NCBI GenBank assembly: GCA_964019415.1
Contig: OZ025875.1
Coordinates: forward strand, 3,517,911-3,581,910
DNA length: 64,000 nt
Source: Ianthella basta
Taxonomy: Eukaryota > Porifera > Demospongiae > Verongiida > Ianthellidae
Direction: 5' to 3'
This document shows positions 6,687-23,559 of the stretch, piece by piece. Both the position numbers and the translations under genes were made by a program. The notes under the pieces were generated by a model. That model had not been told where the DNA came from. It was given only the letters and a program-made list of their open reading frames with translations, and did no database searches. Each line of letters opens with the position of its first letter. The stretch's first letter is position 1.

Positions 6687-9600
6687 ATGGCGGGCCAAAC
6701 TTCGATAAAGAGCTTGGCAGAGCAGAACCTGCGTAGACTAGCAGTAGCCCTTGATGCAGTGGCCCCCAACGGAGAGGAATATTGGCGTCTCCTGGTTGAT
6801 CAGCTCCCTCGTGGTTCCTATCAGACCTGGGAAGTGGAGAAGAAGTTTGCAGCTGCTACCCTGCAAGATGGCAGCCCCTCCCTCCTCCTGTTGGAGAATG
6901 TGCAACAGCGTGAACTTGTGCCAACTGTAGAGGATCTGGTGATTGTGCTGACGAGGATTGAATGTCAGAGGGCACTGAATGTGCTGGCTCTGAAATGTGA
7001 GATCACGTTATTTGAGATTGCAGCAGCCTAGATGTACACACACGGGTACTAGGTAGTTCACCCCATCCCCCCCCTCATCCCCCACCCCTCCCCTCCCAAG
7101 GCCTACATCTGACCCTATCACACTGCACTCTAGGAAATATGTACTACATCAGGGCATTGACATGTTGCTGTTGCCAGACTCCCATGCAGAATTACGCATA
7201 CATAAGGTACAAGTCATTTCTTGTCTTGGGATTTAGTTGTGTATGTGGGAGATCACAAAATATGCCACCTCAGTAGATCAATTTAATCCACTGACATAAA
7301 ATGGTGCACTTCAATTTCGTGGGTAAAGTGATGAGTTGGCAGATTCTATGATGAAACAATCTAATTTGTTAACCTTATAATTACAATACTACTAGGGTAA
7401 CTAGTTACTAGTTTATTGCTGAATGGGAACTGGGAGAATGACAGTGTACAGTAAAGAGCGTGAAGATGTGACTTCTCAGTTGTGAGAAAACTTCTCATAG
7501 TTGGGGTTCTTGGGCATATGTTGACAGAAGATTAGCTTGTATTCTGGCCATGCTACTGCTCACTTGTATAGTTTCCTTCTGCATGCTGAATGCTCTCTCA
7601 GCTGTCTTTCCTCCATCCTCCTCGTCACTCATCCAGCCAAAGTGAATATTACCCAGCAACCTGTGGATTGTATGGTCCTGCAAGGTGGCGTTATCCGACT
7701 GTATTGTGAGGCAGAGTGTGTGCCACATGGCCCTCTGTACCAGTGGTTCATCTCACAGGTGGGGGAGGGAGGGAAGGAGCGCACCCTTCCTTTCCGAGGA
7801 GCGACAGAGAAGCAACTCATGCTGCAACGGGCAGACATCACACACCATGGCAGGTACTGCTGTCGCTGCACTAACCCCTACATGGCTGAGGAAGAAGAAG
7901 GACGAGTGGCCTTCTCAAAGTGGGCTATGGTCACCGTGGCCGGTGAGTGGGGATGACACCAGCCTCACCCATGTACAGTGCTGTAGGGACACACACACAC
8001 ACACACACGGGTGGTGTGCTGTCACCAGCTTTATGCTTGCAATCACCAGTTGGTGAATGTTTGATATTGGAAATGTGCATAAGCTTATTTTACTTACTCT
8101 ATTATGGCTTCTTAATTTCAGCACATACTAATTTTAGCAAATTTTGCAAGTACTGAAAAATGTTTTTTTGCTTGTTAATTTTTCTTTACAGGGAAACATT
8201 TTTCTACACAGAAAAACTTGAAAATCACTAAAATTGCTACACACCAAATCCAAAACTTTTCAAAACACTAAAGTTGCTGCTAAATTTGTATGTGTAGTGA
8301 TAGTATACCTTTTGGAGTGGTGGATTACCTGAAGTGAGATATACAATTCGTCTCACCATTAACTTGATGTTACATGCTGCTAAGCCTTGCATCTCTTCTG
8401 TAGGTGTTCCTGTGATTCTTAAAGAGCCAGACCCCATTCAGAGTGTCCCCATTGGGCAAGATCTCACCCTGTCAGTGTATGCCGAGTGCCACCCGGGCCC
8501 CCCTGAGTATCGATGGTTCAGAGTGTCTGAGGGCAAACACAATCAACTGGAGGGACACAGAGAGGCAGTACTGAAGTTCAGGATCTGCACATTTGATGAC
8601 GCTGGTGAATACTTTTGCATTGTGGGCAATCCTTTGCTGAGCGAGCAGCAGGAGGGTTGGCGTGCGTCAACTATGACTGTCGTCCAAGTCTTGCCGCCAG
8701 ACGTTGGTGAGCATCATGAGTATGGAATGGCACAAGTTGACGGACCAGGGAATGAGGGTGGAGGGTCGATGATCTATGGACCTGAGCTGAGACAACCTGA
8801 GTCGTGTACTGGCAGTGAAGCTGAGTTGAACTCACCTGTGAGGGATGTAGGTCAAGATCAATTTGGTGGGAATGATGCGCCTTGGGCAGGTGTGTGTGTG
8901 TGTGTGCACACGCGTGCATGTGGGTGGGTGGGTGTTAGTGTGGGTGTGGGTGTTGGTGTTTGAGTGTAAGGTGTGCTATGTATGATGTACTGTAACATAG
9001 GTGTAGATGCACATACATACTTAGCCTCTAACAATATGTCAAACTATTACTCATTTTATTATGTATAGTAGCTGCAGGTACAGTGTCCGTGTAGCCTGCA
9101 ATTAAGGACTCATAGTTGCATATACAGTGCATTTCTGTGTGTGCTTCTGTCAGTGAAAACGTCTGTGTAGCTTAGAGATCTGACTGGTCCCTGTTGAGTA
9201 ATGTGGGGGACTGGTATAGTGTGCTAGACATATTAAGCACCTGAGGGCAGAGGGCTTGCTAGACTAACGGAGAGACTAAGTTTTCTTGTTGGGCTGGTGG
9301 ACTGCTTTATGATGTTTCTTGTGCACTGTCTTCATCCAGGCATTGCCCGATCTCCTTTAGGCACTCCGTCTGGCCGTCATCGCCCTCATGTGTTGCAGTT
9401 CTCAGTGGACCAACAGTCCATGGCGGGGGGACAGAGTATGCATAACTACCAAAGTGGTAAGGTGCACCAGCCTCAGTCTACAGGCACTGGGGGTATGTTG
9501 TGTGCATGTATATGTGTACGAATGTATGTATGTATGTATGTATGTATGTATGTATGTATGTATGTATGTATGTATGTATGTGTGTATGTATCTGTGCAGT

Positions 9601-23559: not shown

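Follow-up and report, generated by a model that had tools for sequence, protein, structure and literature searches.

According to the available part of Staal et al. (2018; PMC5978004), type 1 paracaspases were not found outside cnidarians and bilaterians, and the paracaspases of Porifera are of type 2, consisting of the protease domain only. In shrimp MALT1, as described in the accessible sections of PMC10748089, two immunoglobulin-like (Ig) domains precede the protease and one follows it. The same text reports that the MALT1 death domain binds BCL10 and that the two Igs support this binding. In a search of titles and abstract beginnings, whose coverage leaves out most subscription journals, neither a type 1 paracaspase from Porifera nor a death-fold-Ig-ZU5 family was reported.

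We analyzed a 64,000-nucleotide stretch of the genome of the sponge Ianthella basta (the window; contig C8, positions 3517911-3581910, of a 209-Mb genome in 96 contigs). No N letters are present within it. Eighteen forward-strand exons (E1 to E18), beginning with the ATG at 6687 and closing with a stop codon that ends at 23559, can be joined in frame into a chain of 1125 aa, with GT-AG at 17/17 introns. The first-pass annotation had read this chain as a MALT1 homologue with a death domain, five Igs, the paracaspase domain and a C-terminal Ig-like domain. The chain is real, its reading frame is maintained and both ends were correctly placed; the five-Ig product is the doubtful part, since E5 is broken. 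Pfam analysis of the chain found Ig families and Peptidase_C14. Ig2, Ig4, Ig5 and the protease were recovered as predicted, whereas Ig1 was just under the cut-off, Ig3 scored 0.072 and E1 had no match. Sequence comparisons with the rest of the genome indicated that the 5' half descends from a different origin than the protease half.

The 3' module, E7 to E18, has the sequence features of a MALT1-like paracaspase with two Igs before the protease and a MALT1_Ig-like domain after it. The paracaspase domain is encoded by E11 to E14 (19631-19822, 19978-20206, 20540-20635 and 21028-21134; Peptidase_C14, 4.6e-21). The best PDB matches of E11-E12 are MALT1 chains (8.9e-13), compared to 2.8e-5 for caspase-1. 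A single NCBIfam match, caspase_w_EACC1, was far below its own cut-off. In a tree of the p20 region with 13 rows, the window protease, a copy on contig C1, a paralogue on contig C12 and human MALT1 form one clade (100/100), separate from nine caspase-like rows of the same genome that were picked from 16 scanned. Both results bear out the proposed kinship with MALT1. The window copy is a long branch, with a path of 2.62 to human MALT1, compared to 0.72 for the C12 paralogue. This second paracaspase is far more MALT1-like (G000:C12:6944501-6964300; L076, L077). Its joined peptide matches MALT1 in the PDB at 1.8e-25 and retains GYAT and AFE. Its MALT1_Ig match is weak (0.04) and ranked behind two unrelated matches, and its N-terminal side is hidden behind 5000 N. 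The long branch and the C12 copy make it doubtful that the window copy is a deep-branching paracaspase, as had been suggested. Judged by its sequence, the protease half is truly related to MALT1, although it has diverged.

The catalytic residues of MALT1 are retained, in agreement with the first-pass annotation. The His codon is at 20022-20024 (GHG) and the Cys codon at 20175-20177 (TDCCR), as located by phmmer and spacing. MAFFT aligns a later window Cys with the human nucleophile, and the stretch after the Cys is poorly alignable. The S1 pocket of MALT1 contains three acidic residues, D365, D462 and E500. The Asp at the D365 position is kept in the MAFFT alignment. The D462 equivalent, the Asp located two residues before the Cys as in MALT1, is kept in the phmmer alignment but not in that of MAFFT. 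Unlike MALT1, the window copy has no acid at the E500 place, where the GYAT loop could not be aligned confidently by MAFFT. Activity had been considered plausible, and the His and Cys are consistent with this; the poorly alignable S1 loop weakens the case. Since this loop is poorly kept, a scaffold role or an altered specificity appears likelier than classical Arg-directed cleavage.

The layout around the protease also resembles MALT1. Two Igs are located directly before it, both above the Pfam cut-offs. Ig4 (15066-15486; V-set 6.3e-10, Ig_3 3.5e-8) is encoded by E7 (15066-15257) and E8 (15376-15486), and Ig5 (Ig_3 1.2e-8) by E9 (15843-16121). They are followed by an 11-aa linker, E10 (18374-18406). 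The C-terminal domain is encoded by E15 to E18 (22229-22408, 22833-22996, 23170-23265 and 23449-23559, the last including the stop codon). Its best Pfam match is MALT1_Ig (PF18703), which always stayed under the 26.4-bit cut-off, with E-values of 0.0033 for E15-E18 (the best of two matches) and 0.056 for the whole chain. In three C-terminal stretches, two from C1 (0.00023 and 0.00081) and E16-E18 of the window (0.0012), no Pfam family other than MALT1_Ig reached E<=1. These matches agree with the C-terminal Ig-like domain proposed earlier. The long C-terminal tail of human MALT1 is absent, as had been noted. Compared to the type 2 paracaspases attributed to Porifera in the part of PMC5978004 available, the window protease belongs to the same family but has Igs on both sides. 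The Ig array before the protease had been called enlarged; the protease module itself has two Igs, like the known MALT1 described in the accessible text of PMC10748089.

E8 to E18 recur on C1 in a genome search with E1-E9 and E11-E18. E9 is 95% identical and E10 identical in the C1 copy, and the splice GT and AG are kept at all ten tabulated exons. Comparison of the two copies over 510 codons gave a dN/dS of 0.37, with 0.91 for E17. Nucleotide kinship with C1 is visible from position 15262 of the window. Farther upstream, C1 reads N over 7500 letters, and the counterpart of E7 would fall in this run. The E9-E10 intron of the window contains a palindromic foldback array (16342-18139) of 368-base units, direct and inverted, that are 100% identical. 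The array is missing from the C1 copy, suggesting that it is probably a recent insertion or expansion.

The 5' module has a different set of relatives. E1 (6687-6996) contains the start codon and encodes an all-helical, death-fold-like domain (death domain or CARD). E2 (7637-7942) encodes Ig1 (Ig_3 1.6e-6; 29.0 bits, just below the cut-off of 30), and E3 (8404-8889) encodes Ig2 (Ig_3 1.7e-9) and a Gly/Pro-rich linker, with an alternative strong donor at 8706. E4 (9340-9492) is a candidate linker exon of phase 1-1, with an open frame and GT-AG. E5 (9751-9881) encodes the first half of a degenerate Ig3 and has had its 3' end replaced; E6 (14140-14341, phase 0 to 1) encodes the second half. Exons of this module recur at four sites on contig C21, and a partial set (E1, E2 and the beginning of E3) is located at 3473 kb of C8. 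E1, E2, E3 and E5 are each present at all four C21 sites (E1 partial in one, E2 with a split frame in one, E3 split in one) and E6 at three, where it is 68-70% identical. E4 matched only one of the copies, partially and weakly (27 aa, E=0.007). Over aligned stretches, identities for E1, E2, E3, E5 and E6 range from 55 to 87%. The E3 tail up to the late donor contains stops in all four copies.

The C21 copies differ from the window downstream of E6. Among the best candidates listed in the searches with E1-E9 and E11-E18, there were no C21 matches to E7-E18, including the protease. Instead, a ZU5 domain is found downstream on the same strand in three of the four copies; for the fourth, the view covered 7.7 kb. 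One copy was read closely, and there the donor of E6 and the acceptor of ZU5 are both phase 1. The window has no ZU5, as a tblastn search with a C21 ZU5 ORF gave no row at E<=0.01, and its Ig3 is damaged. These comparisons indicate that E1-E6 are members of a local exon family with the order helical (death-fold-like)-Ig-Ig-Ig, with ZU5 next in three of four C21 relatives. The three Igs that had been counted as additions to a MALT1 array are thus part of this module. The first-pass annotation had stated that it would be contradicted if the extra Ig exons formed a separate gene, which is a serious possibility given these relatives.

The assignment of E1 as a death fold is weak. Pfam returned no match for E1 alone (E<=1) or with the upstream frame (E<=10), and identification of a death domain by sequence was rejected. 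A six-row profile of E1 had no PDB match at E<=10, and the matches listed for E1 did not include the death domain of MALT1 itself.

Comparison of the window with one C21 copy over 364 codons (E1, E2, E3 core and E6) gave a dN/dS of 0.23, with 0.60 for E1, 0.15 for E2, 0.16 for the Ig part of E3 and 0.21 for E6. E1 and E2 differ from the C8 copy by 14 changes (0.41), and two C21 copies differ mutually by 15 changes (0.59). All of these values are averages over two lineages and are silent on the present use of the window 5' module. The value of 0.59 and the broken E2 and E3 frames in some C21 copies may point to partial decay within the 5' family itself.

The two sets of relatives bracket the junction between the modules. 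Local nucleotide kinship with C21 stops at 14418, further matches at 22.5, 58, 62 and 63 kb being a dispersed repeat. Since C21 kinship ends there and C1 kinship starts at 15262, we infer a seam within 14419-15065, immediately before E7. The E7 acceptor sits at the Ig position where other Ig exons begin. Our splice-site profiles were built from 13 donors and 13 acceptors of the window, and percentiles, which for donors are ranks among 1322 GTs in 6-24 kb, are rough. On this scale the E7 acceptor is at 98.6, the E6 donor at 56.5, and the E3 donors at 98.2 (8706) and 99.5 (8889).

Ig3 is damaged by a patch of tetraspanin sequence. Bases 9867-10000 match contig C3 at 134/134 positions, where they cover a tetraspanin exon in part together with its donor (Tetraspanin 7e-5 in Pfam, under the cut-off), and CA repeats follow in both places. 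The identity indicates a recent templated patch that has overwritten the end of E5. In the C21 copy read closely, the first Ig3 exon ends in ...RNLLYQ with the donor CAG|GTTAGG. In the window, a whole in-frame Ig3 requires the donor TCT|GTGCTC at 9881, within the patch, which is at percentile 22.6. The donor brought in by the patch is much stronger (99.2) but located past an in-frame stop. Two other phase-0 GTs in E5 are at 9818 (26.1) and 9842 (65.7). The E5-E6 intron also contains a LINE-type retrotransposon with ORFs on the reverse strand (10177-13763; RVT_1 6.4e-33); its endonuclease and zinc finger were judged by eye only.

A single transcript encoding a death fold, five Igs with Ig3 whole or clipped, the paracaspase and the last Ig would use one of these donors. 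Its chain is open over 1125 aa, or 1112 aa if donor 9842, which precedes the patch, is used. This donor scores little worse than the accepted donors of E11 (71.6) and E12 (68.0), and the low dN/dS of E6 is also consistent with such a transcript. However, use of donor 9842 removes the Ig3 cysteine, the whole Ig3 depends on the poor donor within the patch, and Ig3 has no significant Pfam match. We consider this transcript improbable at present, and because E5 is broken, production of the five-Ig protein in its original description is unlikely. Before the patch arose, a protein with five Igs may have been encoded, as suggested by the constraint on E6. If a single transcript is made, it more probably omits E5-E6 and encodes four Igs before the protease. 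E4 cannot be joined in frame to E6. The chains E1-E2-E3-E7 and E1-E2-E3-E4-E7 have no stop before the last one, giving 902 to 1014 aa.

We favor, tentatively and with the probabilities almost balanced, a locus in which two modules were joined by intron recombination into a chimeric gene that is spliced from E3 or E4 to E7. The division of the relatives between the modules, the ZU5 that follows three of the four C21 copies and the end of C21 homology at 14418 point to this reading. So do the strong E7 acceptor and E3 donors, the open E3/E4-E7 chains, the dN/dS values of both modules (0.23 against C21 and 0.37 against C1) and the perfect identity of the patch. Recombination would have occurred in the intron after E6, so that the intron preceding E7 of a paracaspase gene came to stand where ZU5 had been, both being phase 1. 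The promoter of the 5' module would then drive the chimeric gene. The tetraspanin patch would have damaged Ig3 recently, and productive transcripts would splice E3 or E4 directly to E7. The predicted product is death-fold-Ig-Ig-(linker)-Ig-Ig-paracaspase-Ig. By analogy with MALT1, its N-terminal fold may bind an oligomerizing adaptor and, together with the Igs, gather the protease domains in an oligomer. Arg-directed cleavage by this product would be uncertain, and use as a scaffold likelier.

Several observations weigh against the chimeric gene. No relative was found in which both modules occur together, the 5' side of the C1 copy reading N. The ATG at 15068 is two bases inside E7 and could be the start of a separate gene. 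A direct E1-E7 splice is equally open, giving 699 aa in the ordinary MALT1 layout. The stops in the E3 tail of the C21 copies, the signs of decay in the C21 family and the weakness of the E1 death fold detract further, and the dN/dS of E1 and E2 against C8 (0.41 on 14 changes) and of E1 against C21 (0.60) count against it. Unlike in MALT1, the fold at the N-terminus and the additional Igs come from another family and possibly from a separate transcript.

The main rival is a pair of adjacent genes, which we regard as nearly as likely: a decaying death-fold-Ig-Ig-Ig-ZU5 copy that lost ZU5 and had its Ig3 damaged, and a separate Ig-Ig-paracaspase-Ig gene starting from the ATG at 15068 or from an unseen first exon. 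The division of relatives between E6 and E7/E8 and the broken E5 are expected from it as well. On C8 at 3473 kb, the 5' end is present in a second copy that breaks off in E3, and degenerate pieces of E15-E18 downstream in the window indicate decay at the locus. However, the strong E7 acceptor at the position where Ig exons start requires an upstream exon, coding or not, and by eye no death-fold candidate was seen among the listed ORFs of at least 40 aa between E6 and E7. The choice between this and one transcript through an E3/E4-to-E7 splice is close.

The patch, the seam or both could also result from misjoining or wrong phasing, as the region is rich in repeats. The CA repeats that follow the patch at both places, the crowding of the region by identical palindromic repeats and tandem copies, and the N runs adjoining both other paracaspase loci are in line with such an assembly error. 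The window itself lacks N, and frames and splice sites are coherent on either side, and we consider an error very improbable, the least likely of the explanations.

In its broadest form, the favored reading is that a death-fold-Ig gene of local origin and an Ig-Ig-paracaspase-Ig gene were joined in the sponge, giving a MALT1-like chimera in which four Igs, and until recently five, precede the protease. The type 1 architecture would then be older than the cnidarian-bilaterian ancestor, to which published work assigns it, and the locus would show the addition of a death fold to a paracaspase. We regard this full interpretation as doubtful. An Ig-flanked paracaspase in a sponge, if true, would imply either an earlier origin of type 1 or a parallel assembly, and the locus may offer a concrete case of a death-fold-Ig module meeting a protease module. 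The Ig-Ig-paracaspase-Ig arrangement is of greater interest than the number of Igs, because the part of PMC5978004 available gives only type 2 for Porifera.

Other features were observed in the window and the genome. The degenerate E15-E18 pieces are at 32761-34796, 40001-40176 and 43745-45774, and those of E16 and E17 are interrupted by stops. Around them, repeated ORFs are found at about 24.0, 27.6, 35.3, 40.8 and 46.2 kb; the one that was scanned had no Pfam match. We take them to be sulfotransferase-like from their appearance. Mitochondrial-carrier ORFs are located at 49680-50174 (Mito_carr 9.6e-28) and, by likeness, at 56681-57223. The genome contains tetraspanins, MALT1 kin, QACRG caspases, Igs and RHD, a content that marks it as animal, with one RHD locus and 32 homeodomain matches. 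Of 11 homeodomain matches fetched, 10 were read, and none of these appears Hox-like; this and the single RHD locus are indirect signs of a sponge. A regular-expression search of 12 cathepsin loci for silicatein, a sponge marker, found the active site, in each case of the Cys type, in three (L049, L050 and L054) and no match in the other nine; L050 and L054 are one gene. This result speaks neither for a sponge nor against one. Finally, on a 34.7-kb contig, C38 (L003), two QACRG-type caspase domains are encoded by a single long ORF.
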